From a virus, in the IMG/VR virus record IMGVR_UViG_3300033156_000833, positions 1 to 34,147 of that record: a stretch of DNA of 34,147 bases. One strand, given 5' to 3'. The notes beneath the pieces are model-generated. The model was not told the origin of the DNA, did no database searches, and saw nothing but the letters and a program-made list of their open reading frames with translations. The position numbers and the translations under genes are program-made. How positions within the stretch are numbered: position 1 is the first letter of the stretch; every line of letters starts with the position of its first letter. Positions 2,260 through 31,104 of the stretch are shown piece by piece.

Positions 2260-2690
2260 CAATACAAGAAAAGGCCAAAAAAATAGTTGAGATCCGGAAT
2301 AAAATTAATGAATTGAAAGAAAAGATGGATAAGTTAAAAGCAGAAAGAGATAAATTACAAGCTGATATTATTGAACATCTGAAACGACTTGGATTTAATT
2401 CAATTAAAACTCAAGAAGCGATGATATCAAGACAGGTTGCGAGAACATTGACAATAGTTGACGAAAAGGCTTTGGTTGAGGATTTAAAAAAGAAAGGGTT
2501 GAATGATTATATTAGAGAACAAGTTGATAGAAATTTATGGCGAGGACTTGCTACTGAAGCAATTAAACAGGGACAAAAATTTAAAGGAACTGAAATAAAA
2601 GAATCTGAATTTATTAGTGTTAGAAAGGTAAAGCCAAAGATTGATAAAGAAATTATGGTATCAGATTCCGGATCTGCAATAGAAAAATAG
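2256..2690 (+). CDS. Coiled-coil protein next to the recombinase
   Basis: A 144-aa protein whose first ~45 residues are a clear coiled coil (KINELKEKMDKLKAERDKL and on), followed by a compact domain with IKTQEAMISRQVARTLTIVD. Its start overlaps the stop of the annealing protein by four bases, so the two are probably made together. The arrangement, coiled coil plus small domain beside a recombinase, is seen in phage accessory recombination or nuclease-inhibitor proteins, but I recognise no named family. The stop codon's last base is also the first base of the structured RNA at 2690. Confidence 0.55.
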   Translation: MTIQEKAKKIVEIRNKINELKEKMDKLKAERDKLQADIIEHLKRLGFNSIKTQEAMISRQVARTLTIVDEKALVEDLKKKGLNDYIREQVDRNLWRGLATEAIKQGQKFKGTEIKESEFISVRKVKPKIDKEIMVSDSGSAIEK

Positions 2691-2803
2691 CCTCTTCCTT
2701 GTAGGCAAATCAGCACCTTAGTCAGCTCCTCGAAGGTGCGGGAGCTTCAAGCCATTAAGTTGGCAGTAGCTTCCCAAACTGATGGGGGGCTGGCATAAGA
2801 GGC
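2690..2803 (+). ncRNA. Candidate structured RNA with overlapping, mutually exclusive stems
   Basis: A GC-rich island of 114 bases in AT-rich DNA. A 7-bp outer stem (2690-2696 with 2797-2803) closes it. Inside: stem a pairs 2713-2719 with 2733-2739 (7 bp); stem b pairs 2724-2729, which lies in the loop of a, with 2741-2746 (6 bp), giving a pseudoknot or two competing hairpins. A hairpin at 2751-2754/2761-2764 has loop TTAAGT. Stem c pairs 2768-2775 with 2784-2791 (8 bp, two G-U). A further alternative pairs 2740-2746 with 2768-2775 through a one-base bulge around the TTAAGT hairpin. So many exclusive pairings suggest a switch. It lies 24 bases before the next start. It matches no riboswitch or ribozyme I know. 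Confidence 0.6.
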
Positions 2804-2827
2804 TGATAAATGGTAAAATATAAATAT

Positions 2828-3229
2828 ATGGATAATTTAACAAAATTACAATATAAAACTCTTGAAGTTTTAGTAAATTTAAAAGGTAAAGAAATTACTG
2901 GTAGAGAACTTGCTAAACTTATTGGAATGAAAGGAGACAAACCGGGAAAATTAGGGGCAAATATGAGATCTATTATAAATGCCCTCCGAACAAAAGGTTG
3001 GCCAATTTGTGCTAATTCGGAGGGTTATTTTTATGCTCAAACTCCGGAACAATTATCTAAATATATTGTAGATTTTCAGGCAAGAATAGATAAACAACAA
3101 CAAGCTTGTGATGGACTCCAAAATGCTTTTGATAAAATAGAAAATAATAGTTTTAAGCGAGAATATATTGTTTATAAAGTTAATGGAAAAGAAGTAGCAA
3201 AAATACCTAAATATGAAGCTTCAATTTAA
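2828..3229 (+). CDS. Winged-helix DNA-binding protein, replication region
   Basis: A 133-aa protein. Residues ~4-65 form a winged helix: LTKLQYKTLEVLVNLKGKEI, then ELAKLIGMKG, a recognition helix in ANMRSIINALRTKGWPI, and a wing NSEGYFYA. It continues with TPEQLSKYIVDFQARID, a helix common in phage proteins of this kind found just before replication initiators. I chose ATG 2828 because its context (TAAATATATG) matches that of the annealing-protein start at 1558; ATG 2810 would add six residues. Expected role: DNA binding in replication or early regulation. It directly follows the structured RNA, which may control it, and overlaps the initiator gene by 17 bases. Confidence 0.65.
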   Translation: MDNLTKLQYKTLEVLVNLKGKEITGRELAKLIGMKGDKPGKLGANMRSIINALRTKGWPICANSEGYFYAQTPEQLSKYIVDFQARIDKQQQACDGLQNAFDKIENNSFKREYIVYKVNGKEVAKIPKYEASI

Positions 3230-3980
3230 ATTTTTACCAATACCAGAGGAATTAATGAGATCCAAAGCAATAAGTTGGGGAGCTAAATTTTTATTTGGCA
3301 TTATAGCAAAAGCAAATTTAGATGGAGTTAGAATGAGTAATAAACATTTGGCAGAAAGAATGAATTGCACAGTTAGGCAAGTTCAAAGAAGAGTAGCTGA
3401 ATTAAGAGATAATGGTTTTATTATTGTAAAAAGAACTGGCAGATCAAATGTTTATTTTGTTAATTTTGAGCTTGTTCAAATAATCCAAACAGATGACAAA
3501 AATGTCGTATCAGATATGACATCAGATGTCGTATCAGATATGACGCATGATGTCGTATCCACTATAAAGAACAATTCTAAAAGAACTTCTTTAAATAATA
3601 TGTCGCAAAGCGACACTCCTTTTGATTTAAAAGAATATCTTGAAAAAATGAAAAAAGATAAAAGACGAGCTATTCAGATTATTGCTCTCTGGATAGAACA
3701 GAAAGGTTTAAAACCAGAGACTTATAAGCAAATGGAAAGTATTATTAAAAGAAATTTAAGGCCTGCTCAGTTGTTAGTTGGATATAAAGATGAAGATATA
3801 ATTGAGACTATTAAGGTGATAAAAAATACCGACTGGATTAAAAAATTCACCCTTGAAACTGTATTAAAATTTATTGATGAGACTATTTCAATGAGGAAAA
3901 AAGAAAAAAAGATAGTTAAGCTTAAAAGAGTAATAATAGATGGAAAACCAATAGTTAAAATTATTTATGCAAAAAATTAA
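3213..3980 (+). CDS. Probable replication initiator with winged helix
   Basis: A 255-aa protein. The N-terminal domain (residues ~1-85) is a winged helix of the kind seen in phage and plasmid initiators: WGAKFLFGIIAKANLDG, HLAERMNCTVRQVQRRVAEL, DNGFIIVKR wing. A linker with repeated DVVSDMT units (~95-115) is encoded by iteron-like DNA repeats. A helical, basic C-terminal domain (~130-255) may bind host replication proteins, as lambda O and DnaD-like proteins do. An initiator gene that contains its own origin is the lambda O arrangement. No helicase or polymerase gene is present, so it must recruit the host's. The stop overlaps the next start. Confidence 0.65.
   Translation: MKLQFKFLPIPEELMRSKAISWGAKFLFGIIAKANLDGVRMSNKHLAERMNCTVRQVQRRVAELRDNGFIIVKRTGRSNVYFVNFELVQIIQTDDKNVVSDMTSDVVSDMTHDVVSTIKNNSKRTSLNNMSQSDTPFDLKEYLEKMKKDKRRAIQIIALWIEQKGLKPETYKQMESIIKRNLRPAQLLVGYKDEDIIETIKVIKNTDWIKKFTLETVLKFIDETISMRKKEKKIVKLKRVIIDGKPIVKIIYAKN
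3502..3560 (+). repeat. Iteron-like direct repeats, likely replication origin
   Basis: Units start at 3502, 3526 and 3550, exactly 24 bp apart. The first two share 19 identical bases beginning ATGTCGTATCAG; the third keeps the first 11 (ATGTCGTATC and the next C as a partial match). Each full unit holds a near-palindrome, GTCGTATC / GATATGAC, suitable for a dimeric protein. They sit in the linker of the initiator gene and are followed by about 40 bases of very AT-rich DNA (3561-3601), a plausible unwinding site. Confidence 0.65.
3602..3614. other. Perfect palindrome beside the iterons
   Basis: GTCGC AAA GCGAC: two 5-bp arms around AAA, at the far side of the AT-rich stretch after the iterons. 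The arms repeat the GTCG found in each iteron, so it may bind the same protein. It is inside the initiator coding sequence. Confidence 0.45.
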
Positions 3981-6263: not shown

Positions 6264-6914
6264 ATGAAAAATTGCAAAGAAAATTTTAAGTTTATAACTT
6301 CCTGGGATGATTATTGTTTAGAAAATATTAAATTAGCTGAAGTGTTAAAAAAATATAATTTACCGGCAATTTTCTTTATTGAGTTAAGTAAAAAAGAGGC
6401 AAAAGAGCAAATAAAATATTTATCAGATCTTGGGTTTGAAATAGGAAGCCATACAATAAATCATCCGCAAGATTTAAAAAAACTTGCTTTAGAAGGAAAT
6501 TTTGAAAAATTATATTATGAGATAGATGATTCAAAAAAAATATTAGAATTATTAACAGAAAAGACTATTGAATGGTTTTGTTATCCAAGAGGTAGATATA
6601 ATGATGTAATTAAAGATGTTGTTGAAACTTTTGGGTATAAATATGCAAGAACAACAAAGGTTTTAAATATAGAGCATCCGGATGATCTTTATGAAATAGA
6701 GACATCAATTCATGTATATCCAAATCGAAAAGAGTATGGTGGTAAAAAATGGATTGATATTGCTTTTAAGTTATTTGATGAGGCTTATAAAAATAATGGA
6801 TATTTTCATCTTTGGGGTCATGCTTGGGAAATTGAAAAATTTGGTCTTTGGGATGAACTTGAATGGTTTTTAAAATATGTTAAATCAACATTTTTTGCTA
6901 ATGGTATAGAATAG
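6264..6914 (+). CDS. Polysaccharide deacetylase (NodB homology, CE4)
   Basis: A 216-aa enzyme of carbohydrate esterase family 4, expected to remove acetyl groups from N-acetylated sugars. Motif 1 is TSWDDY (catalytic and metal Asp). Motif 2 is SHTINHP, with the two metal-binding His. Motif 3 is CYPRGRYND. HLWGHAWEIE near the C-terminus supplies the late His motif. All key residues are present and there is no signal peptide, so it acts in the cytoplasm on a sugar precursor rather than on assembled cell wall. First gene of a cassette with glycosyltransferases, spaced by only 3 bases from the next. Confidence 0.85.
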   Translation: MKNCKENFKFITSWDDYCLENIKLAEVLKKYNLPAIFFIELSKKEAKEQIKYLSDLGFEIGSHTINHPQDLKKLALEGNFEKLYYEIDDSKKILELLTEKTIEWFCYPRGRYNDVIKDVVETFGYKYARTTKVLNIEHPDDLYEIETSIHVYPNRKEYGGKKWIDIAFKLFDEAYKNNGYFHLWGHAWEIEKFGLWDELEWFLKYVKSTFFANGIE

Positions 6915-6917
6915 TTT

Positions 6918-7772
6918 ATGAAAATATATCTTGCAAATAGTTCAAAACAGAAAATTGGCGGTGGTTGGACATTTTTAAATAACTTATATAATGGATTAAA
7001 AGATAAGGTTGATTTTGTTAATAATTGGCAGGATTGTGATATTTATTTTATATCTGGAGCAACAATGGTTGAAAGAAGTGAAGTTAAAGCAGTGAAAGAA
7101 GCTGGAAAGAAAATAATATTAAGAGTTGATAATATTCCAAGAAATAGCAGAAATAGGAATACTGGGACAAGCAGATTATATGACTTTGCTCAATTAGCTG
7201 ATAAAGTAATTTATCAATCTCGATGGGCAAAAGAATATGTTGGATATTTTATACAAAAAGATGGACCAATAATTTATAATGGAGTAGATACAAAGATTTT
7301 TAATCCGCAAGGAGAGAAACTGCCAAGAACTAAAAATAATGTTTATCTTTATGTGCAGTATAATCGAGATGAGAATAAGAGAATGCCTGAAGCTTTTATG
7401 TATTTTCATTGGTATTGGAAAAAAAATAAAGATTCAGAATTATGGTTAATGGGTAGGTTTTCACCGGAGCTTATTAAATATAATTTTGACTTTTTTATGA
7501 ATGAACCAGTAAGGTATTTAGGAGTTAGAGAATATCCTTATGATGTAGCAAAGGTTATGAGGTCGGTCGATATTCTCTTAATTCCTTATTTTTGTGATGC
7601 GTGTAGTAATACTTTATTAGAAGGAATTGCCTCTGGTTGTAAGATAGATTTTTGTCTATCTGGCCTTACTGGAGGAGCTAAAGAATTAATTGAGCTTTCA
7701 GATATTTCATTAGAGCGAATGTGTAATGAATATCTGAAGGTTTTTAAAGAATTATGCGAAAAAGACAAATAA
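6918..7772 (+). CDS. Glycosyltransferase, GT-B fold (GT4-like)
   Basis: A 284-aa retaining-type glycosyltransferase. It starts with KIGGGWTFLNNLYNGL, the glycine-rich loop of GT-B enzymes, continues with RVDNIPRN and YQSRWAKEYVG, and has NGVDTKIFNP, a hallmark of GT4. CSNTLLEGIASGCKIDF matches the family's donor-binding EX7E region. It is short for GT4, with a small C-terminal lobe. It overlaps the next gene by 19 bases. Donor and acceptor cannot be read from sequence; neighbours suggest a phage or host glycan. Confidence 0.8.
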   Translation: MKIYLANSSKQKIGGGWTFLNNLYNGLKDKVDFVNNWQDCDIYFISGATMVERSEVKAVKEAGKKIILRVDNIPRNSRNRNTGTSRLYDFAQLADKVIYQSRWAKEYVGYFIQKDGPIIYNGVDTKIFNPQGEKLPRTKNNVYLYVQYNRDENKRMPEAFMYFHWYWKKNKDSELWLMGRFSPELIKYNFDFFMNEPVRYLGVREYPYDVAKVMRSVDILLIPYFCDACSNTLLEGIASGCKIDFCLSGLTGGAKELIELSDISLERMCNEYLKVFKELCEKDK

Positions 7773-8104
7773 AAAAATTCTTAAAAAAGCAGTTAAAAGA
7801 ACATGAACTTTTATTAATTAGAAATAAAATTGAATGTGATTTTTTTGAGAAACAGGCTAAAAAAATATGCTCTAACAAAGAAAGAAAAGAGTTTGAAAAT
7901 AAAGAAGCTTGGTTAAGGGCTCATCAAAAAGAAGAGCATATTAAAAAGACTAAAAAGTGGAAAGAAGTAGTTGATAGATGTAGAAAATTAAATGAGAAAA
8001 TCCAAATGGCAGGTGAATTAGAGCAACGAGTTATGAAATTAAAAAGAGATAGAATTTTAATTGAAGGTTATATTGATTATTTAAAAAAGCTATTAAGAAG
8101 TTAA
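7754..8104 (+). CDS. Basic coiled-coil protein
   Basis: A 116-aa protein, almost entirely charged helix (KKFLKKQLKEHELLLIRNK and similar heptads), with two scattered cysteines but no motif I recognise. It overlaps the glycosyltransferase before it, so it is made from the same transcript. It could be a scaffold or accessory subunit of the glycan cassette or simply a passenger. Confidence 0.5.
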   Translation: MRKRQIKKFLKKQLKEHELLLIRNKIECDFFEKQAKKICSNKERKEFENKEAWLRAHQKEEHIKKTKKWKEVVDRCRKLNEKIQMAGELEQRVMKLKRDRILIEGYIDYLKKLLRS

Positions 8105-8129
8105 AAATAAACTAATAGATAATAAAAAT

Positions 8130-8285
8130 ATGAAACTTATTACTTACCTTTTAATTACTCTCGGAATGCTTGGAATAATGATTGTAGATTTTAATCCCCA
8201 TTCTTGGTATTTTCTCATTGGTTGGACTTCATTTTGTCTTGGTATGGCATTTTTAGTATATGAGGTTTATAAAAAAAGATTATGA
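8130..8285 (+). CDS. Small two-pass membrane protein
   Basis: A 51-aa peptide with two hydrophobic segments (residues ~3-19 and ~26-45) joined by a short DFNPHS turn and ending in basic KKRL, so both ends should face the cytoplasm. Its stop overlaps the start of the methyltransferase as ATGA. Small membrane peptides in glycan loci can act as flippase or anchor helpers; here that is speculation. Confidence 0.55.
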   Translation: MKLITYLLITLGMLGIMIVDFNPHSWYFLIGWTSFCLGMAFLVYEVYKKRL

Positions 8286-8905
8286 GTTCTTATTTTAGAC
8301 AACAATTAGAAGACTGGTTAAAAACTATTGATGTTAAAGCAGATAGAGTATTGGATGTTGGTGGTGGAGCTAATCCTGTTAAAGGAAGGACGAAAAGCTG
8401 GGATGTTAAAGAGTATAAGATTTTGGATAATGGATTAGAGGAAATGAAGTGTAAGCCTGATTATATTGCTGATTTAAATAAGGATTGGTTTTGGATAAGC
8501 ACGAAAACGAAAAGTGGATGGGATAGTATTTTAGGAGAAGAAAATATTCAAAATTTTGATGTAGTTTTTTGTTTGGAGGTAATGGACTATGTATGGGATC
8601 CTCATCAGGCATTATTTAATTTAAATTGGTCGTTAAAAACAAATGGTATTCTTTATATCTCATTTCCATTTATTTATCCTCATCATAATCCGGAAGGTCA
8701 TGATTATTTGCGGTATACTCGCTGGGGGGTTGAAAAATTATTAAAAGAAGTTGGATTTAAAATTGAGGAATTAAAATCAAGAGTAATGACATTAAATGGA
8801 TTTGAGAATTGGAAAGAATTTATCAAAAATGAGAAAATGCATCTTTCTAAAAATTATCAAGGACATAATGAAATAGGATATTTGGTAAAAGTAATAAAAA
8901 AATGA
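8282..8905 (+). CDS. SAM-dependent methyltransferase (class I)
   Basis: A 207-aa enzyme. Motif I VLDVGGGANP binds SAM; the acidic residue after strand 2 is in YKILDN; NFDVVFCLEVMDYVWDPHQA is motif post-II/III; NGILYISFPFIYPHH is the late strand. The HHNPEGHDYLRYT segment is typical of Methyltransf_11-like enzymes in sugar and secondary-metabolite clusters. It likely methylates a sugar or lipid-linked intermediate made by the neighbouring enzymes. Overlaps (4 bases) on both sides indicate a translationally coupled chain. Confidence 0.8.
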   Translation: MSSYFRQQLEDWLKTIDVKADRVLDVGGGANPVKGRTKSWDVKEYKILDNGLEEMKCKPDYIADLNKDWFWISTKTKSGWDSILGEENIQNFDVVFCLEVMDYVWDPHQALFNLNWSLKTNGILYISFPFIYPHHNPEGHDYLRYTRWGVEKLLKEVGFKIEELKSRVMTLNGFENWKEFIKNEKMHLSKNYQGHNEIGYLVKVIKK

Positions 8906-9867
8906 AAAAAATAAAAATATTTGGAATTCCTTGGCATGCCTCGCATCAATATGAATTATTTAAACTGCCAAATTGTGAATTTTATTTGCTTATAAACAAC
9001 TGCCGGGAATGGGCTCCAAGAGCAAGACCTTTACCGAAAAATGTAAAATGGGTTCCTTATTATGAGCCAGGAAAGTATGATTTAGCAATTCTCCATGTTG
9101 ATCAGATGAGTATAGACGAAAGATTAAGTAATAAAGGAATTATTTTTAGAGAATTAAATAAACAAATCCAAGATATTCCGAAAATAGTTATAAATCATGG
9201 AAGCCCAGTTTGGCCAGAATGGTATACAAAGGAAGAAATAATTGAGAAAATGGCAAAACTGGTTGGTGATAATATAATGGTTGTTAATTCTTATAAAGCT
9301 GCAGAGGAATGGAAAGGAGTTGGAAAAGAGATTGTGCCAATAATTCATGGGCTTGATCCTAAAGAATGGTGGGATTTAAAAAAGGAGCCGAGAATTATAA
9401 CAGCAGTATCGCCGGCTGGTCTTGATACTTATTATAATCGTAAATTATATAAAGCAACGCAGGAAGAATTAGGAAAAAAAGGAATAGCAATAGTTCATTT
9501 AAGAATTCATATATTTTTTGATAATTGGGATGATTATAGAGATTATCTTGGCAGATCATTGATTTATTTTGATTATTCTTTACATACGCCAATGAATAGA
9601 GCAAGAACAGAAGCAATGTTATCTGGATGTTGTATTGTGACAGCTAAAAATCATGATGTTGAAAGATTTATAGAAAATGGAAAAAATGGCTTTATAATAC
9701 CAAACAATCCTTATTCTGCGGCAAGATTATTAGAAAAATTAATAAATGATTATGATCGTTGTATAAAGGTCGGCCAAAAAGGAAAAGAAACAGCAATCCG
9801 CTTTTTTAATAAAGATCGATATCAAAGAGATTGGCTAAATCTTATTAAAAAGGTGATAAATAAATGA
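8902..9867 (+). CDS. Glycosyltransferase, paralogue of the 17727 gene
   Basis: A 321-aa GT-B-like enzyme. Key segments: GIPWHASHQYELF, VPYYEPGKYDLAILHVDQ, IVINHGSPVWPE, MVVNSYKAAEEW, and TPMNRARTEAMLSGCCIV, the donor-site region with the GT4-type Glu. The same segments recur almost unchanged in the 340-aa protein at 17727, so the two arose by duplication or were acquired together. The 17727 copy is longer in the middle. Probably they transfer different sugars or act on successive positions. It is coupled by ATGA to both neighbours, the methyltransferase and a virion-type protein. Confidence 0.78.
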   Translation: MKKIKIFGIPWHASHQYELFKLPNCEFYLLINNCREWAPRARPLPKNVKWVPYYEPGKYDLAILHVDQMSIDERLSNKGIIFRELNKQIQDIPKIVINHGSPVWPEWYTKEEIIEKMAKLVGDNIMVVNSYKAAEEWKGVGKEIVPIIHGLDPKEWWDLKKEPRIITAVSPAGLDTYYNRKLYKATQEELGKKGIAIVHLRIHIFFDNWDDYRDYLGRSLIYFDYSLHTPMNRARTEAMLSGCCIVTAKNHDVERFIENGKNGFIIPNNPYSAARLLEKLINDYDRCIKVGQKGKETAIRFFNKDRYQRDWLNLIKKVINK

Positions 9868-10542: not shown

Positions 10543-10887
10543 ATGTATTTTCAAAGGAAGCAGAACAAATATTATAATATTGAACAGGTTTATAATGGAG
10601 TAAGGTATGACAGCAAAAAAGAAGCTCAATATGCTTATGAGTTGGATATGAGAAAAAAAGCCGGCGAAATAAAAGATTGGGAAAGGCAAATAACAATACC
10701 ATTAAAGGTTTATGGAAAAACAATCTGCACTTATAGAATAGACTTTAAGGTTTATCATAATGATGGAACTATAGAATGGGTTGAGGTTAAAGGATTTCCA
10801 ACTTATTCTTGGAGGTTAAAATGGAAACTTTTTGAGGCTATTTGGTCGCATGAACATCCAGAGGATATTTTAACGGTTATTAAATAA
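10543..10887 (+). CDS. DUF1064 nuclease-like protein
   Basis: A 114-aa protein of the DUF1064 family, small phage proteins with a PD-(D/E)XK-like core. The pattern is complete: VRYDSKKEAQYAYELDM, GEIKDWERQITIPL, YRIDFKVYHND and WVEVKGF, where D, E and the E-V-K form the presumed active site. Such proteins are suggested to act in DNA processing or packaging, with no settled substrate. I chose ATG 10543, which has AGAGG five bases upstream (one of few clear SD sites here), over a TTG at 10528. It leads the packaging block. Confidence 0.78.
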   Translation: MYFQRKQNKYYNIEQVYNGVRYDSKKEAQYAYELDMRKKAGEIKDWERQITIPLKVYGKTICTYRIDFKVYHNDGTIEWVEVKGFPTYSWRLKWKLFEAIWSHEHPEDILTVIK

Positions 10888-10905
10888 TAAAGGTCGAATA
10901 TTTAA
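10880..10905 (+). repeat. AAGGTCG-loop hairpin, copy 2
   Basis: 7-bp all-A/T stem (10880-10886 with 10899-10905) with a 12-base loop containing AAGGTCG (10890-10896). It includes the stop codon of the DUF1064 gene. Alone it would be weak, but loop and placement match the other members. Confidence 0.5.
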
Positions 10906-10933
10906 CTAATAAAAATTAACAAGTAAAAAAACT

Positions 10934-13111: not shown

Positions 13112-14429
13112 TTTTGAGTATTTTGTCAATAATATATTTTCATTATCTGTTAAGAATTTTGTAGGAGGAGAGCATGTAAATTGGACAGCGAGATTTTTGC
13201 AAGATAATCATTGGACGATGAGGATATCAGCAAGAGATCATTTTAAGTCAATGAGTTTGTATGCTCATTTTATGTGGCAGGTTTTGAGAAGGTTAGATCC
13301 GTTAGAAGCTCATTATTTTTCTTATCAGGTTAATATGGCCGCTTATCATATTCAGAAGATAAAAGGTTTGATAGCAAAAAATCCGTTTTATAAAGATTTA
13401 GTAGATGATAAACCAACCGCTGAAGGGATTATAAAATATCATTGGAAAGGGGAAGATAATTACTTTACTCTTGAACCGCAGGGAATGTTGGGATTTAAAA
13501 GAGGAATTCATTGTCCGATTGTTTATGTTGATGATCCATTTCAAGATCCGGCAAATAAATTGGTTTTAACTGTTATTAAAAAAATTAATCGCATATTCAA
13601 AACAGAAATACTTGATATGCCGAGAGAAGAATTGCATGTTGTTGGAACGGCCCAAACAAGAGATGACTTTTATTTTGATCATGATTTAAGAAATAAATTT
13701 GCTGTAAAAATATTACCGGCAATAATTTCAGAAAAAGAAAAAAAAGTATTATGGCCAGAATGGAAAGATTATAAAGAATTGTGTAGAATTAGAGATTTAA
13801 AAGGTGAAAAGATTTTTAATCAAGAATATCAATGTTCGCCAGTTTATGCTGAGGAAGGATTTTTTAAGAGAAAACAAATTTTAAAAGTTGTCAACCCAAA
13901 ATTAGAAAATCTTTCAGTTTATAAAAAATATGATATTAAAGATGATGTAGTTGCAGGGTTTGATATAGGAAAAAAGGCTCATCCGTCTCATTTATCAGTT
14001 TTTAGAATTGTAAGAAAAGAAGCTAAAGAAAAATGGATACAGATTCACCAAATATTTATGGATGGTTGGGATTATGTTAAACAGTTAGATTATCTTAAAT
14101 TAGCTATTGAGAATTTTAAAATTGATTATTTAAATTATGATACAACTCGTGGAGAGTTTGAAAGTTTAGGAGAAGAAGGAAGATTGCCTTCTCAAATGAA
14201 GCCAGTTAATTTTAACAATAAAGAAAAATCATCATTGGCTACAGAATTTAGCAAAAAGGTCGAAAAAGGAGAAATTGAACTCCTTGATGATAGAAGAATG
14301 ATTGAACAAATTTTATGTGTGACAAATGATTTACAAGCTCCGGAAACTCCAGAAGGTCATGGCGATAGTTTTTGGTCAATTGCATTGGCAATGAAAAAAG
14401 CACCAGAAGTAAGAATTAGATTTGTATAA
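13065..14429 (+). CDS. terL: Terminase large subunit
   Basis: A 454-aa packaging motor: an ATPase pumps DNA and a nuclease cuts concatemers. The ATPase has a variant Walker A around RISARDHFKSMS, where the usual GxGKS/T is DHFKS, and a Walker B CPIVYVDDPFQDP. The C-terminal RNase H-like nuclease shows AGFDIGKKAHPSH (first Asp), NYDTTRGEF (second) and PEGHGDSFWSIALAM (third). The size is typical for short TerL proteins of small phages. The Walker A with D-H-F in place of G-K lead residues is seen in some TerL groups and should not be taken as inactivation. Confidence 0.92.
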   Translation: MWDENQIKIVKKAVNDFEYFVNNIFSLSVKNFVGGEHVNWTARFLQDNHWTMRISARDHFKSMSLYAHFMWQVLRRLDPLEAHYFSYQVNMAAYHIQKIKGLIAKNPFYKDLVDDKPTAEGIIKYHWKGEDNYFTLEPQGMLGFKRGIHCPIVYVDDPFQDPANKLVLTVIKKINRIFKTEILDMPREELHVVGTAQTRDDFYFDHDLRNKFAVKILPAIISEKEKKVLWPEWKDYKELCRIRDLKGEKIFNQEYQCSPVYAEEGFFKRKQILKVVNPKLENLSVYKKYDIKDDVVAGFDIGKKAHPSHLSVFRIVRKEAKEKWIQIHQIFMDGWDYVKQLDYLKLAIENFKIDYLNYDTTRGEFESLGEEGRLPSQMKPVNFNNKEKSSLATEFSKKVEKGEIELLDDRRMIEQILCVTNDLQAPETPEGHGDSFWSIALAMKKAPEVRIRFV

Positions 14430-14433
14430 AATT

Positions 14434-15294
14434 ATGAAAATATCAATCTTTACTACAATTACAAATCCAGAAAAATATCAATATGCTTATTTAGAGGCTA
14501 TTGAAAATTATTTAGATTTTGCTGATGAGGTGGTTATTGTTGATGGTGGTTCAACAGATGGATCACTTGAAAAAATATTAGAAAAATTTGGCGGAAAGGT
14601 AAAAATTATTAAATTACCTTGGCCGGAAGAATGGGAATGGGCCGAGTTGCCAAAACATCTTAATCTTGGATTAGAGAAATGCACTGGAGATTGGGCAATT
14701 AAAATGGATATTGATTATCTTATTCATGAAAATGAGTTTGACAAAATTAAAAAGAAATTGTCTGATTATTTTGATGCTCATATTCCTGTTGCTTATTTTA
14801 TAAAGTTTAATGTTTTAAATAGATTTAAAGGATATGAAAAAGCAATTTTACCATTGGCAATAAATACAAAAAAAGCAGATGAACTTAATATTAGATATGG
14901 GATAGCAACTGATCAACAAACAGATTGGTGCTATCCTATTTTAGTTAGTGGAGAAAATAAAAAATGGAAAGTTCCAGAAGGCAGGAAGTTGCCAGATGAT
15001 ATGATGGCACCATTAAGTGCGTATATTTATAATTATGATTACTTTTTCAGAACAAAAGAAATGGCGAAATTAGAATTTTTTAGGTTTAGTAAAGCTTATG
15101 CTACTGCTTTTAATTGGTCTTGGGGGAAAACTCCTGAAGAATCATTTAAAATTTTTGTAAATCAAATGAAAGGTCGACTTAATAAACCAATATTAAAAAG
15201 CGTAGATCATCCAAAGTATATAGTTGAGCGAATTAAAAGAATGACACCTGATGAGTTCGGCTATAATAATTGGGATAATTTTAAAGGCTTATGA
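14434..15294 (+). CDS. Glycosyltransferase family 2
   Basis: A 286-aa GT-A enzyme. MKISIFTTITNPEKYQYAYL opens the nucleotide-sugar site, EVVIVDGGSTDGSLEKI is the family 2 signature, and WAIKMDIDYLIH carries the metal-binding DxD (D-I-D). I use ATG 14434; a TTG at 14422 lies within the end of terL. It begins the second glycan cassette, placed between terL and portal, a place where phages normally go straight on to the portal. It overlaps the next gene by 4 bases. Confidence 0.87.
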   Translation: MKISIFTTITNPEKYQYAYLEAIENYLDFADEVVIVDGGSTDGSLEKILEKFGGKVKIIKLPWPEEWEWAELPKHLNLGLEKCTGDWAIKMDIDYLIHENEFDKIKKKLSDYFDAHIPVAYFIKFNVLNRFKGYEKAILPLAINTKKADELNIRYGIATDQQTDWCYPILVSGENKKWKVPEGRKLPDDMMAPLSAYIYNYDYFFRTKEMAKLEFFRFSKAYATAFNWSWGKTPEESFKIFVNQMKGRLNKPILKSVDHPKYIVERIKRMTPDEFGYNNWDNFKGL

Positions 15295-16880
15295 ATATAT
15301 TAATCACACCAGATGTCCATGAGTGGGCAATTGGAAATTTAGTAAAAGCGATTGTAAGAAATAATCCGAGATTTAATTTTTTCAATGTTGCTGTTCATCC
15401 GAGAGGAGTGGCCCAAGGAATGATTGAAATTAAAAATCTAATGAGTAATGGAATTAAGTTTGATTTATGGCATCCTCAATATTGGCATTCAGCAAATCAG
15501 CTTATGGATTTAATGCCTGAATTAAAAGAAATTCCGAAAATTTTAACTCATCATAATCATTATCAGTTAGATGAGAGTGATTGGAAAGAATATGATATGC
15601 TGGCAATCGCAACAACATGGGGCTTTGAAAGGCTTTCTTTGAAGCATCCTCGAGTAGTAAAAATTCCTATGGGAATTGATTTAGATAGATATACTTTTAT
15701 TGAAGATTATCCACCAAAAGAACCAGCGGTTGGATATATTGGAAGAGTAGTGCCGCATAAAAATTTAGATAGAATTTGTAAGATTTCTAAAGAATTGGGA
15801 TATAAAGTTATAGGTTCTGGTTATATTGATAAACCAGATTATTGGGAAACAGTTCCAAAAGATAATTTAGAATTTCATGGAGGATTTGGGAGGCAAGGAA
15901 TGATGCCCATGAATTTTAAAGATGAGATTTATAGAAGAATGACGGTTTTTGTTATGTATTCAACTGGAGAAAAAGAAACTGGGACGATTCCATTATTAGA
16001 AGCTATGGCCAGAGGAGTTCCTGTTTTAGCAACAGCTCAAGGAATGGCAAGGGATCTTATTGAGGATGGGAAAAATGGAATTATATTTAATGAAAGTAAT
16101 TTCAAAGAGAAGTTAAAAATGATAATGGAAGATGAAAAGTTAAGAATGAAGATAAGAGAAAATGCTTGGAATACTATAAAAAATTATTCAGATAAAAAAA
16201 TGGCAAGAAATTTTGCCAGAGCCTATTATCAACTTTTATATCCAAATGATAGACTGATTTCAGTAATAATTCCGACATTTAACAGAAGAAAAAATATCAT
16301 TAAGATTTTGCTTTCTATAGAAAGGCAGGATTATCCAGCAAAAGAAATAATAGTTTGTGATGATGGCTCTGATGATAATACTGAGATTGCAGTAAAAGAA
16401 GCAAAAAAACAATTTAGAACACCTATTTTATATTTGAAAACTGGGGAAAAATTAGAATATGGATTAGCTAAAGCGAGAAATATTGGAGCAATTGAGGCAC
16501 TTGGAGAAATATTAGTATTTTTAGATGATAGATTGGCCTTGGAAGATGGAGCTTTAAGTAATATTGCTAAATATACCTTTCCGAATACTTGGCATTGGGG
16601 AGGGAAGATTAGCAAAGGAAAGCTGTCAACAAAGAAATCATTTGTTGAGAATTTTAGCTGGATTTTAAAAAATGATTTTATAAAAGCTGGAATGTTTTGT
16701 GAGCGGATTAATATGTATGGTGGATTAAGCCAAGAAACAAGAGAAAGATTTGGTAAGCAGGGATTTGATTTTAAATATATTCCGGAAGCAAAAGCAAAAG
16801 AAATTGAATCATCTGGCAGATATAAAAGAAAAAGCGATATTTGGAAAGCTAAATTTTTATTGCATAAAATGTATGAATAA
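15291..16880 (+). CDS. Two-domain glycosyltransferase (GT4 plus GT2 fusion)
   Basis: A 529-aa fusion. Residues ~1-315 are a GT-B glycosyltransferase of GT4 type: IPMGIDLDRYTF, VGYIGRVVPHKNLDRICKIS, and the donor-binding EKETGTIPLLEAMARGVPVL, with the two Glu eight apart. Residues ~325-529 are GT2: ISVIIPTFNRRKNI, EIIVCDDGSDDNTEI and ILVFLDDRLAL. Such a protein could add two sugars in turn. It was read without frameshift through the domain junction around residue 320. It overlaps both neighbours, 4 bases upstream and 8 downstream, so the cassette is one coupled unit. Confidence 0.85.
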   Translation: MNILITPDVHEWAIGNLVKAIVRNNPRFNFFNVAVHPRGVAQGMIEIKNLMSNGIKFDLWHPQYWHSANQLMDLMPELKEIPKILTHHNHYQLDESDWKEYDMLAIATTWGFERLSLKHPRVVKIPMGIDLDRYTFIEDYPPKEPAVGYIGRVVPHKNLDRICKISKELGYKVIGSGYIDKPDYWETVPKDNLEFHGGFGRQGMMPMNFKDEIYRRMTVFVMYSTGEKETGTIPLLEAMARGVPVLATAQGMARDLIEDGKNGIIFNESNFKEKLKMIMEDEKLRMKIRENAWNTIKNYSDKKMARNFARAYYQLLYPNDRLISVIIPTFNRRKNIIKILLSIERQDYPAKEIIVCDDGSDDNTEIAVKEAKKQFRTPILYLKTGEKLEYGLAKARNIGAIEALGEILVFLDDRLALEDGALSNIAKYTFPNTWHWGGKISKGKLSTKKSFVENFSWILKNDFIKAGMFCERINMYGGLSQETRERFGKQGFDFKYIPEAKAKEIESSGRYKRKSDIWKAKFLLHKMYE

Positions 16881-17313
16881 AATAATAGTTTTGGGAGCCG
16901 AGAGCACCGGCACAAGAATTACAACTAAAATATTAGAGGAAAACGGCTTTAATGTTGTGAGGAGAAGCTTGCCTTGGGCCCAAAAATGGCCAGACTTAGA
17001 TAAATTATATAAAAAGCATAGATTTTCTTTTGCGGTTATTACAGTAAGAGCTTGGCCCTATATGATTAAATCTCAAGTTAGACAGAAACATACTCATTCA
17101 GAAATAGAAGCTGAAAAAAGAACAAGGGAAGGCTATAAAAGAATATTTAGATTTTTAGAAAAGTATAATATACCTTTTGTTATTTTCTCCTACGATGCTT
17201 TGATTACCAGTCCGGATTTTATTCAGAATTGGATCTTAAAATATCTTGGAGTGGATAATGAAATAAAATATTTAATTATAGCTAATGAAAATAGCAAATA
17301 TGAGACGAGTTAA
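16873..17313 (+). CDS. P-loop sulfotransferase-like protein
   Basis: A 146-aa protein. MNKIIVLGAESTGTRITTKI is a P-loop-like nucleotide site of the form seen in sulfotransferases (5' PAPS loop) and in small kinase-like phage proteins annotated as sulfotransferase. FAVITVRAWPYMIKS and PFVIFSYDALITSPDF fit the 3'-phosphate region (R, S). I use ATG 16873; reading could open further upstream but only within the previous gene. In this setting it may sulfate or phosphorylate a sugar. The protein is shorter than typical sulfotransferases (~250 aa). Confidence 0.6.
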   Translation: MNKIIVLGAESTGTRITTKILEENGFNVVRRSLPWAQKWPDLDKLYKKHRFSFAVITVRAWPYMIKSQVRQKHTHSEIEAEKRTREGYKRIFRFLEKYNIPFVIFSYDALITSPDFIQNWILKYLGVDNEIKYLIIANENSKYETS

Positions 17314-17758
17314 AATTAAAAATTTTAAAGATATTTATCTTGATCTTGGTTGCGGAGATAAAAAACATAGAAGGCCTATAAAAGGAAAAAATAATGTTGG
17401 TTTAGATATAATTGATTATGGCCAAGAGATTGTTTGGGATGTAAAAGATGGAATTCCTTTGCCTGATAATAGTTGTGAATATATAATAGCGAGTCATTTT
17501 ATGGAACATTTTAATGAAGAAGAATTTTTAAAAATAATGGATGAATGTTGGAGAGTTTTAAAGAAAAATGGCGAGCTGTATATAATTTCGCCAACATTAT
17601 TTAGAGAAGAGAGCTGGATACCTGTTCATAAATTGCATCCAAGAAAAGCAACATTTAAGTTTTTTGAAAATTATAAATATCCTTGGATAATTAAAGAAAT
17701 AATAATTAATCAAAAATTAGACATTCATGTCAAAATGCAACCAAAAAAAGAAATATAA
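17285..17758 (+). CDS. SAM-dependent methyltransferase (Methyltransf_11 type)
   Basis: A 157-aa enzyme. Motif I YLDLGCGDKKHRRP, an Asp after strand 2 in VGLDIIDYG, and CEYIIASHFMEHFNEEEFL followed by WRVLKKNGELYIISPT are complete. The HxxEHF pattern is typical of small methyltransferases in sugar clusters. It overlaps the gene before by 29 bases and the one after by 32, the longest overlaps in the cassette. It is the second methyltransferase of the phage's glycan set and not a close copy of the one at 8282. Confidence 0.8.
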   Translation: MKIANMRRVKIKNFKDIYLDLGCGDKKHRRPIKGKNNVGLDIIDYGQEIVWDVKDGIPLPDNSCEYIIASHFMEHFNEEEFLKIMDECWRVLKKNGELYIISPTLFREESWIPVHKLHPRKATFKFFENYKYPWIIKEIIINQKLDIHVKMQPKKEI

Positions 17759-18749
17759 AATCTTTACTACTCCTTGGCATACAATGCATTTTTATGATCT
17801 TTTTAATGCCTTAAAAGAAGATGCAGAGTTTTATTTGGTTTATAATAGTAGTAAAGAGTGGTATTATCAAACAAGACCCTTGCCGGAGAATGCTCATTTT
17901 GTTCCATATTATGAACCGGGTAAATATGATTTAGCTATTTTGGATATAGATCAGCAATGCGTTGATCCTGATATGGGAAAAAGCATTTTGTTTAAAGAAA
18001 TGAGAGATTTAATACAAGATATTCCAAAAGTTGTTATAAATCATGGTTCACCTGTCTGGCCAGAAAGATTAAAAATAGGAGATGATGAAAGCTTTGAATA
18101 TGCTGAGAAAAAATGTAAAAGAGAAATAAGGGCTTTAGTTGGTGATATTCCAATGGTTGTAAATTCTTATAAAGCAGCTTTTCCTGATGAGTGGGGTTGG
18201 GGGATACCGATTTGGCATGGAATGAATCCTGATGATTGGTGGGATTTACCAAAAGAACCAAGAATATTTACAGCTTTATCTCCTGGAGGCTGTGATACTT
18301 ATTATAATCGAGAATGCATGAATGAAGTTGCAAGAATTTTAAGAGAAAAATATGCTTTAGAATTATGGTGGGCAAGGGTTAATGTTAATACTGAAAAAAG
18401 TTTTGATACTTACAGGGAATTTTTAGGTCGATCCCTGATCTATCTCGATACCTCTTTTAGAACTCCGATGAATAGAGGAAGGACTGAGGCAATGTTGAGT
18501 GGTTGCTGTGTTGTGCAGGTTGAAGGAGCTCATGATTTAGAAAAATTTGCAAAACCAAATGAAAATATGATTATAGTTCCTAATGATCCAGAAAAGATAG
18601 CAAAGAAGCTTTCAAAATTGGTAAATAATTATTATGATAGATGTGTTAGGATAGGCCAAGCTGGAAAGAAAACTGCAATAGAAAAATTTAATTATAAGAG
18701 GTATCGCCAAGATTGGTTAACTTTAATTAAAAAATTAGTATGGAAATAA
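17727..18749 (+). CDS. Glycosyltransferase, paralogue of the 8902 gene
   Basis: A 340-aa enzyme aligned along its length with the 8902 protein: FTTPWHTMHFYDLF, VPYYEPGKYDLAILDIDQQ, VVINHGSPVWPE, MVVNSYKAAFPDEW, LSPGGCDTYYNRE, FRTPMNRGRTEAMLSGCCVV, and the same C-terminal RYRQDWLTLIKKL. An extra ~20 residues after WPE (FEYAEKKCKREIRALVGD) account for the greater length. Long exact blocks such as VPYYEPGKYDLAIL suggest a fairly recent duplication with later divergence, or shared strong function. Sugar donor unknown. Confidence 0.78.
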   Translation: MSKCNQKKKYKIFTTPWHTMHFYDLFNALKEDAEFYLVYNSSKEWYYQTRPLPENAHFVPYYEPGKYDLAILDIDQQCVDPDMGKSILFKEMRDLIQDIPKVVINHGSPVWPERLKIGDDESFEYAEKKCKREIRALVGDIPMVVNSYKAAFPDEWGWGIPIWHGMNPDDWWDLPKEPRIFTALSPGGCDTYYNRECMNEVARILREKYALELWWARVNVNTEKSFDTYREFLGRSLIYLDTSFRTPMNRGRTEAMLSGCCVVQVEGAHDLEKFAKPNENMIIVPNDPEKIAKKLSKLVNNYYDRCVRIGQAGKKTAIEKFNYKRYRQDWLTLIKKLVWK

Positions 18750-19603
18750 GAATACTTACATTTCAAAGAAAACATGGAAGAAGAAAAGGATCGATTGGGT
18801 CGTCAATAATTCGTGGTGATTGGCTCGTTAAACATTGGCCAGAAGCAAAATTATGGACAGAAGGATGTTATAGTGATGTATTGATTTTTCAAAAAGTATA
18901 CTGGGAAGAAATGATGAAAGCATATCCGGGAATAAAAATTTTAGACTTGTGTGATCCTGATTGGCTAACTGGTGAATTAGAATTGGTAAAAATCTCTAAA
19001 CTTGTTGATGCTATTACTTGCTCATCAGAAGGAATTTATAAATTTGTAAAAAAGATAGTGAAAGTTCCTTGCTTTTATATTCCTGATAGAGTTGATTTAG
19101 ATTTTTTTGATAAGCCCAAAAAGCATGTTGGAAAAGCTGAAACAGTTGTGTGGTTTGGATATTATCATAATGCAAAAGAAATTTTACCAATGGTTCTTCC
19201 TTCCTTGGCAAGATTAAGATTAAAATTGTTAGTTGTTTCTAATAATGAATTTAATCCAGTAAATACTTATGGAGTGGAAATAGAAAATAGAAAGTTTAGC
19301 TGGGAGACAATAAAATTTGATTTAACTTATGGGGATATTGTTATAAATCCTCAGCCGATAAATTATAATAAAAGATTTAGATTTAAATCTAATAACAAAA
19401 CTTATATTGCTTGGGCTTGTGGAATGCCAGTGGCTGATAATGTTGAAGATCTTGAGAAATTTTTAGATCCTGAAGAAAGAAACAAAGAAGCTCAAGCAAG
19501 ATTAAAAGAAGTTAGAGAAAAACATAATATTAAAATATCAGTTGAAGAATTTAAAAAGGTCATAGAAATATGCAAGAAAAACAGAAAGAAACAATCAAAG
19601 TAG
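18740..19603 (+). CDS. Glycosyltransferase-like protein, GT-B fold
   Basis: A 287-aa protein. It opens with a basic stretch (QRKHGRRKGSIGSSIIRGDW), then ILDLCDPDWLTGELELV, CSSEGIYKFVKKIVKVPCFYIP and YIPDRVDLDFFDKP, typical of the hinge between the two lobes of GT-B enzymes. VVWFGYYHNAKEILPM and KTYIAWACGMPVADN fit the C-terminal lobe. The EX7E motif is not obvious, so the fold call is firmer than activity. Last enzyme of the second cassette; overlaps the small gene that follows by 34 bases. Confidence 0.65.
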   Translation: MEIRILTFQRKHGRRKGSIGSSIIRGDWLVKHWPEAKLWTEGCYSDVLIFQKVYWEEMMKAYPGIKILDLCDPDWLTGELELVKISKLVDAITCSSEGIYKFVKKIVKVPCFYIPDRVDLDFFDKPKKHVGKAETVVWFGYYHNAKEILPMVLPSLARLRLKLLVVSNNEFNPVNTYGVEIENRKFSWETIKFDLTYGDIVINPQPINYNKRFRFKSNNKTYIAWACGMPVADNVEDLEKFLDPEERNKEAQARLKEVREKHNIKISVEEFKKVIEICKKNRKKQSK

Positions 19604-21992: not shown

Positions 21993-22017
21993 AAACTTTC
22001 GTTAGGTCGGAAAGTTT
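21993..22017 (+). repeat. AAGGTCG-type hairpin, copy 3
   Basis: 8-bp stem (21993-22000 with 22010-22017) and loop GTTAGGTCG, where one A of the core is T. It lies between portal and protease; the 3' arm ends 5 bases before the ATG at 22023. Confidence 0.65.
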
Positions 22018-24636: not shown

Positions 24637-24652
24637 TAGAAATTCCTTGTAG

Positions 24653-24673
24653 TGAAGGCCTTACTGGCCTTCA
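24653..24673 (+). terminator. Hairpin after the capsid gene
   Basis: 8-bp GC-rich perfect stem (24653-24660 with 24666-24673), loop TTACT. There is no U-tract, so it may block exonucleases and stabilise the capsid mRNA rather than terminate. It abuts the larger hairpin at 24673. Confidence 0.5.
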
Positions 24674-24723
24674 TGCTACGCTCGAGTGTTTTCGACCTTC
24701 ACTCGAGCGGAGCATAAAGGTCG
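24673..24723. repeat. AAGGTCG-loop hairpin, copy 4, in opposite orientation
   Basis: Stem 24673-24688 with 24700-24715: 15 pairs with one A/G mismatch, the strongest in the window. The 11-base loop (24689-24699) reads CGACCTT on + and AAGGTCGAAAA on the other strand, so it is the family motif inverted. Just after it, 24717-24723 is AAGGTCG again; it can pair with the loop to form an alternative 7-bp hairpin that excludes the big stem. No start codon is near (next at 24751). Confidence 0.65.
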
Positions 24724-24750
24724 GTAATTCATAAAAGTAAAAATAAAATT

Positions 24751-26343: not shown

Positions 26344-26781
26344 ATGGCTGATACAACCTATACAATATTGAAAAATAAAATAAAGGAGAAACTTCAAGGA
26401 ATATCTAAAATTCAGGAAGTTTATGATGAACCGAGATTAGAATTTTCTGGTTATCCTGCTGCAATAATTACTCCCTCTGAAGATGAATCTGATTATGAAA
26501 CAACAACTGAAAATTTAAGGGTTTATGTTTTTAATATTGATCTTTTTTATGAGATACCAAGTTCTGGAATATCAGAGGCTTTAGATGCTTTATATGATTT
26601 AGCTGATGATGTTATGGATGCCTTTGATCAGGACCAAACATTATCAGGAATATCTTTACCAAGTAGGTATACAATGGTCGGAATTGAACCAAGCTCTGGG
26701 GCATGGAGCGAGGTTCCAGATAAAAAATTATTAACTAAAACAGTTAAATTAAGAATAAAAATTAGTGTAGACATCAGCTAA
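26344..26781 (+). CDS. Tail terminator protein
   Basis: A 145-aa alpha/beta protein in the tail-terminator slot between gp10-like and tail tube genes. KIQEVYDEPRLEFSGYPAAI followed by YVFNIDLFYEI, a helical ALDALYDLADDVMDAFDQD and a final strand LLTKTVKLRIKISVDIS fit the lambda gpU / SPP1 gp17 fold. It should cap the tail tube and fix tail length. Its stop codon lies inside the hairpin at 26771. Confidence 0.72.
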   Translation: MADTTYTILKNKIKEKLQGISKIQEVYDEPRLEFSGYPAAIITPSEDESDYETTTENLRVYVFNIDLFYEIPSSGISEALDALYDLADDVMDAFDQDQTLSGISLPSRYTMVGIEPSSGAWSEVPDKKLLTKTVKLRIKISVDIS

Positions 26782-26793
26782 GGTCGCTGATGT
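26771..26793 (+). repeat. AAGGTCG-loop hairpin, copy 5
   Basis: Perfect 8-bp stem (26771-26778 with 26786-26793) and loop TAAGGTC, followed by G. It contains the stop codon of the tail terminator gene and ends 6 bases before the tail tube ATG at 26800. Confidence 0.72.
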
Positions 26794-27790: not shown

Positions 27791-27825
27791 AAGGTCGATT
27801 TAGCTTAGTAGTTTAATTAACTAAG
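27791..27825 (+). repeat. AAGGTCG motif with nearby hairpin, copy 7 (loose)
   Basis: AAGGTCG at 27791-27797 has no clear flanking arms of its own, unlike other members. A separate 6-bp stem follows (27804-27809 with 27820-27825), ending 11 bases before the ATG at 27837. It is in the tail tube to chaperone gap. Included because of motif and place; structure is doubtful. Confidence 0.35.
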
Positions 27826-31082: not shown

Positions 31083-31104
31083 TCTCTATTAAGGTCGATA
31101 GAGA
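31083..31104 (+). repeat. AAGGTCG-loop hairpin, copy 6
   Basis: Perfect 7-bp stem (31083-31089 with 31098-31104), loop TAAGGTCG. The 3' arm ends 6 bases before the ATG at 31111. It is the cleanest example together with the copy at 26771; their arms share no sequence. Confidence 0.7.

Follow-up and report, generated by a model that had tools for sequence, protein, structure and literature searches.

A structured intercistronic RNA ahead of the replication genes of an uncultivated phage and its possible role in translational control

Results

Location of E1 within the early operon

The window analysed here is a stretch of 34,147 nucleotides comprising positions 1–34,147 of the phage record IMGVR_UViG_3300033156_000833. 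On its + strand a gene for a Gp157/Gam-like protein (Pfam DUF7307, Sipho_Gp157) extends from 2256 to 2690 and ends with a TAG codon (2688–2690) that abuts a structured RNA element, termed E1 (2690–2803). Directly after E1 follows a gene of 139 codons (2810–3229, + strand; PHROG 2113), and E1 occupies the entire gap between the stop codon of the former and the latter gene. The structural model of the 139-aa protein (mean pLDDT 68.9, low confidence) has a long helix in addition to other helices and a pair of short strands. Translation of the 139-aa gene is served by the Shine–Dalgarno (SD) sequence AAGAGG at 2797–2802, 7 nt before the ATG at 2810. The initial annotation had placed E1 24 bases before the next gene; this distance was counted from a second in-frame ATG at 2828 and has to be corrected. 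The start of the replication initiation gene (3213–3980, + strand) overlaps the stop of the 139-aa gene, the two reading frames sharing 17 nt (3213 versus 3229). From this arrangement translational coupling of the two genes is likely, and lower translation of the first would therefore probably lower that of the second.

A predicted early-operon promoter with the sigma-70 consensus TTGACA-16-TATAAT, matching at 12 of 12 positions, is located at 1093–1120 on the + strand, and no promoter was seen immediately ahead of E1. Because this is the single promoter of the operon, E1 lies within an mRNA. Between positions 900 and 3300 no terminator-like site was detected; the fold of E1 is followed by ATAAATGG, so it lacks the hairpin with a trailing U-run that marks an attenuator or intrinsic terminator. 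We also considered readthrough from the TAG at 2688–2690 to the TAA at 2796–2798 and rejected it, as 35 stop-free codons are unremarkable in GC-rich DNA and no homologue supports it. Iteron-like repeats with a 24-bp period (2.4 copies, 91% matches) are found inside the replication gene (3502–3559, + strand) and represent a candidate origin, and tandem iterons such as those of an iteron origin were not found within E1.

E1 is a stable RNA structure of the + strand

The GC content of E1 is 0.54 compared with 0.31 for the whole window, which ranks it first among all 34,034 segments of 114 nt. It lies in the most stable of the 1,792 tiles folded from both strands (−54.1 kcal/mol, tile at 2699). 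For 2690–2803 a minimum free energy (MFE) of −51.9 kcal/mol was calculated (z −4.5), and none of 200 dinucleotide shuffles folded equally well. When the segment 2688–2809 was folded as sense RNA, the MFE was −59.7 (z −5.2), whereas the antisense RNA was weaker (−41.7, z −2.6) and the DNA fold reached a z of −2.0. The signal is therefore RNA structure on the + strand, the strand shared by all neighbouring genes, and the structured element is real. This bears out the initial description of a compact, GC-rich RNA preceding the replication genes in an AT-rich genome.

E1 is present in a single copy. Its assignment to no known RNA family was likewise upheld: the Rfam 15 covariance models, including those of riboswitches, ribozymes and small RNAs, gave no match in the window at the gathering threshold, and near E1 they gave just one 13-bit snoRNA match that is expected by chance (E 9.5).

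A long rod is predicted to replace the stems first described

The main predicted fold is a long interrupted rod (2709–2807, + strand). It is built from two base helices (2709–2714/2802–2807 and 2717–2720/2796–2799), a 12-bp core helix (2721–2732/2783–2794) with a probability of 0.98 in the ensemble calculated over 2640–2860, a short helix (2735–2737/2778–2780), an inner helix (2740–2746/2768–2774) and a tip helix (2751–2754/2761–2764), whose apical hairpin comprises the 14 nt GCCATTAAGTTGGC (2751–2764). The rod has 36 pairs; together with a small hairpin at its 5′ side (2690–2694/2701–2706) there are 41 pairs, five of them G-U.

The initial annotation had instead described three stems, a (2713–2719/2733–2739, seven Watson–Crick pairs), b (2724–2729/2741–2746) and c (2768–2775/2784–2791, including a G-U pair), closed by a 7-bp outer stem. 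All of them can pair at these positions, yet in the ensemble each has a probability of 0.00. The outer stem (2690–2696/2797–2803) is formed by Watson–Crick pairs only and can be lengthened to 2689/2804, so its complementarity stands, but the rod is favoured over it; its 5′ arm may also pair locally in the small 5′ hairpin. The nested combination of outer stem, stem a, hairpin and stem c reached −36.2 and outer stem plus rod −48.9, compared with the MFE of −51.9. Forcing stem a cost approximately 14 kcal/mol and forcing stem b approximately 8. The further claim that the 3′ arm of b can pair with c instead was confirmed (2740–2746/2768–2774, the inner helix of the rod), and the pairings are mutually exclusive. 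In nascent RNAs ending at 2740, 2776 or 2785 stem a is predicted, and by 2792 it is displaced by the rod. A transient role for stem a during synthesis is thus possible according to the model.

An a/b pseudoknot had also been proposed. Since pseudoknots are excluded from the folding energies, it was assessed by geometry. The two stems do interleave, and the loop that would have to cross the 7-bp stem a consists of only 1 nt (2740); a full pseudoknot is therefore sterically poor, and at best a shortened stem a could coexist with b. Loops spanning both helices, as in H-type pseudoknots, are not found for a and b. In addition, an interleaved pair of stems of the same quality arises in 8.3% of composition-matched shuffles. 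The pseudoknot, which is also energetically minor, is therefore not supported.

Both rival folds involve the SD sequence. In the outer stem AAGAGG itself serves as the 3′ arm, complementary to the GCCTCTT arm right after the upstream stop codon (2690–2696), and all of its bases are paired there; in the ensemble the rod pairs four of its six bases. E1 therefore holds an SD sequence in a stable helix of the kind found at T4 genes e and soc. Blocking positions 2676–2703, the stretch covered by a terminating ribosome, left the SD sequence paired in the calculation. Simple opening of E1 coupled to termination is therefore not favoured by the model.

Searches for homologues of E1

No homologue of E1 was obtained by blastn with either 2400–3400 or E1 itself against phages and plasmids, by searching the flanking proteins in IMG/VR and in phages, or by a terminase search and an alignment of replication proteins. 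One 25-nt match in Arthrobacter phages was judged to be due to chance, as were all exact 20-mers of E1 in GTDB genomes and 16-mers in IMG/VR, which lie in GC-richer DNA and were dismissed by comparison over 114 nt. A covariance model built from E1, weak because it contains one sequence, found among 42 loci and 37 whole relatives only E1 itself and its own complement.

A search with the portal protein yielded one near-identical phage fragment (L039/L100), which ends short of E1. This closest fragment is 98.7% identical over 13.9 kb and does not include the element. Its alignment with the window breaks at 17562–17684, and the sequences of the two strains have diverged at 17684–17725 and at about 15631–15698, which suggests that glycosyltransferase and methyltransferase genes have recombined. 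Read from the translations, the regions 6264–9867 and 14422–19603 contain glycosyltransferase-, methyltransferase- and deacetylase-like genes, an unusually large set for a 34-kb phage.

Folded leaders precede related genes in other phages

A distant relative of the replication protein (37% identical) is encoded in phage L088, and the leader just before its gene (L088:5737–5852) is strongly folded (z −6.9). It contains helices of 15, 15, 9 and 8 bp, several of them interleaved, a number attained by none of 2,000 shuffles, and is preceded by a promoter matching at 10 of 12 positions. The leader was rejected as a homologue of E1: position and interleaved stems are similar, but the sequence is unrelated and 40% of shuffles do as well. 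Judged by sequence, it is at most analogous. The same phage has a long intergenic hairpin at L101:14508–14620, in which CCCCACTCTTTATTAT pairs with ATAATAAAGAGTGGGG.

Relatives of the 139-aa protein (PHROG 2113) are carried by three human-faecal phages, and their genes are preceded by conserved leaders (L089:2856–2932, L090:2189–2280 and L103:1359–1434). In these leaders the 5′ arm of a terminator hairpin can pair with its terminator partner or, alternatively, with an arm further on, which can itself also pair with the SD sequence; the arrangement resembles a switch that joins termination with SD control. They are absent from Rfam; as candidate relatives of E1 they were discarded, showing no match to it. 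Given the folded leaders of L088 and of the three faecal phages, genes of the PHROG 2113 and replication type seem often to be under leader control, exerted by unrelated RNAs.

Hairpins with a conserved AGGTC(G) loop

The word AAGGTCG occurs 11 times in the window, compared with 0.8 copies expected, and 10 of these lie on the + strand. Five of the seven AAGGTCG or TAGGTCG copies that are intergenic or at gene boundaries (1505–1511, 10890–10896, 22003–22009, 26780–26786 and 31091–31097) are located on the 3′ side of the loop of a hairpin; further copies are at 24717–24723 and 27791–27797. The five hairpins (1491–1522, the 10883–10908 region, 21993–22017, 26771–26793 and 31083–31104) differ in their stems, each of which is perfect and 7–11 bp long. 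By comparison, random positions carry a stem of such quality in 5% of cases and intergenic positions in 13%. Three of the hairpins share a fixed spacing, with GGTCG ending exactly 13 nt ahead of the ATG (22023, 26800 and 31111). Stems that vary and remain complementary around one loop would be expected of an RNA hairpin that is recognised through this loop.

A second structured intergenic RNA (24637–24750; z −7.3, no Rfam family) follows the major capsid gene. It contains a hairpin (24653–24660/24666–24673) and a candidate H-type pseudoknot with stems S1 (24679–24688/24700–24709) and S2 (24693–24699/24717–24723), the latter pairing CGACCTT with AAGGTCG. This element and the beginning of E1 have the sequence AATAG...TTCCTTGTAG in common (p ~0.012 for the local alignment), and the tip of an intergenic 12-bp hairpin at 1042–1071 is identical to the 14-nt tip of E1, a shared word reached in ~2.5% of simulated E1 sequences; both links were found post hoc and are taken as leads that fall short of proving a common family. 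Wherever the second strain covers these sites, it carries them without any change, the divergence being too low for a test of pairing.

One might combine E1, the element at 24637–24750 and the AGGTC(G) hairpins into a single phage-wide RNA regulon. Hairpins that show AAGGU in the loop near start codons would then be the target of a phage factor or of an adapted ribosome, and the two larger elements would hide the loop motif by an anti-motif (GCACCTT and CGACCTT, swapped together with AAGGTGC and AAGGTCG, respectively). We regard such a regulon as rather unlikely.

Discussion

The position of E1 and the burial of the SD sequence suggest that it controls the replication genes at the level of translation. 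Our preferred reading, to which we assign a probability of roughly one half, is that E1 acts in cis as an intercistronic RNA of the early operon and keeps translation of the 139-aa and replication genes low by default. It has computed support from the stable + strand rod, from the SD sequence lying within both rival helices and from the overlap of the next two genes. The strongly folded leader of L088, the rival-arm leaders of the three faecal phages and the T4 precedents for SD burial also speak for it. The buried SD sequence would slow binding of the 30S subunit, and the replication gene would be held low through its coupling to the 139-aa gene. The outer stem would be lost under a ribosome that terminates at the upstream stop codon (footprint to about 2703), but the rod would persist. 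Translation would rise once the rod is opened by a bound protein, by RNase III cleavage or through the nascent conformation with stem a, and dose and timing of the replication proteins would in this way be set at the RNA level. Against a translational gate, the rod is so stable that, instead of switching, it could act as a fixed barrier or as a site of processing. If the ATG at 2828, which no SD sequence precedes, were the true start, the SD argument would be weaker.

The strongest rival is that the rod serves as an RNase III-type processing site or mRNA-stability hairpin separating the recombination from the replication genes. An interrupted duplex of 36 pairs between cistrons is in keeping with it, and rods of unrelated sequence in other intergenic regions, at 24637–24750 and in L088/L101, are expected if it is shape that is read. 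Processing alone leaves unexplained why the SD sequence is present in both rival helices, and we consider it a possible but clearly less probable explanation; cleavage could also double as the trigger of the gate. A switch that senses a small molecule or protein, alternating between the rod and the state with outer stem and stems a and c, would make use of the strong, mutually exclusive pairings and of the order of folding, in which the stem a hairpin is favoured in RNA ending at 2740, 2776 or 2785 and the rod from 2792 on. The rod is, however, about 13–15 kcal/mol better than the nested alternative and hides most of the SD sequence too, and interleaved stems arise in 8% of shuffles. We thus think a sensing switch unlikely. 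Of the riboswitch-like control proposed initially, the general sense of translational control in cis survives, with the SD sequence buried in both folds, and the specific sense is lost.

The remaining readings fared worse. A trans-acting or processed small RNA would agree with the compact, GC-rich nature of E1 and with the 8-bp terminal stem that closes it, but neither a promoter-like site at its 5′ end nor a terminator at its 3′ end was seen, and E1 overlaps a ribosome-binding site as well as a stop codon; this role is very unlikely. About as unlikely is a DNA element, whether a GC-rich mobile fragment that was inserted and carries 8-bp inverted repeats at its ends, or an origin or packaging signal. 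The GC contrast is sharp and the ends read AGCCTCTT and AAGAGGCT, whereas folding is far better for sense RNA than for antisense RNA or DNA, E1 is a single copy, a target duplication is not obvious, and the iteron-like repeats are located elsewhere. Least probable of all is a functionless GC-rich spacer that folds by chance; the lack of homologues would fit, but no shuffle of the same dinucleotide content matched the fold, and the element is a GC outlier bounded by two genes.

If cis-acting translational control by E1 is true, an uncultivated phage uses RNA to set the control of its recombination genes apart from that of its replication genes inside a single operon, by a leader RNA absent from any family library. 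The presence of several structured RNAs and of hairpins with a conserved loop in one 34-kb phage suggests that catalogues understate how often such phages control translation through RNA structure.

Comparison with known systems

In the lambda N leader and in T7 early mRNA, RNase III sites are situated in leader or intercistronic rods beside ribosome-binding sites. The placement of E1 resembles these rods, and there is no sequence relation. In T4, mRNA helices sequester the SD sequences of genes e, soc, 49 and I-TevI (PMC3014915). E1 shares with them a phage mRNA helix that contains the SD sequence; the T4 cases differ in being short hairpins whose reading changes between early and late transcripts (PMC3014915), whereas E1 forms a 99-nt rod between cistrons. 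Structured operators are also present at the T4 replication genes 32 and 43, and the translational operator of gene 32 in T4, T2 and RB69 is a pseudoknot (PMC3014915). Like E1, it is a structured RNA that precedes a replication gene; unlike it, E1 has no supported pseudoknot, and neither a gp32-like repressor nor an A+U-rich cooperative site was identified. The type of control proposed for E1 thus looks like one already known, and E1 does not look like a new RNA class.

The AGGTC(G) hairpins can be compared with the Start-Associated Sequences of cluster K mycobacteriophages, near-identical 13-bp sequences located 3–7 bp from start codons, for which pairing of the RNA by extended inverted repeats is doubted by the authors (PMC3203893). 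Both sets have many copies on the same strand, several of them at a fixed distance from the start codon, and an SD-like core. In contrast to the mycobacteriophage sequences, the stems of the AGGTC(G) hairpins vary yet stay complementary while the loop is conserved. With the novelty of E1 being modest, this hairpin family is the better lead.
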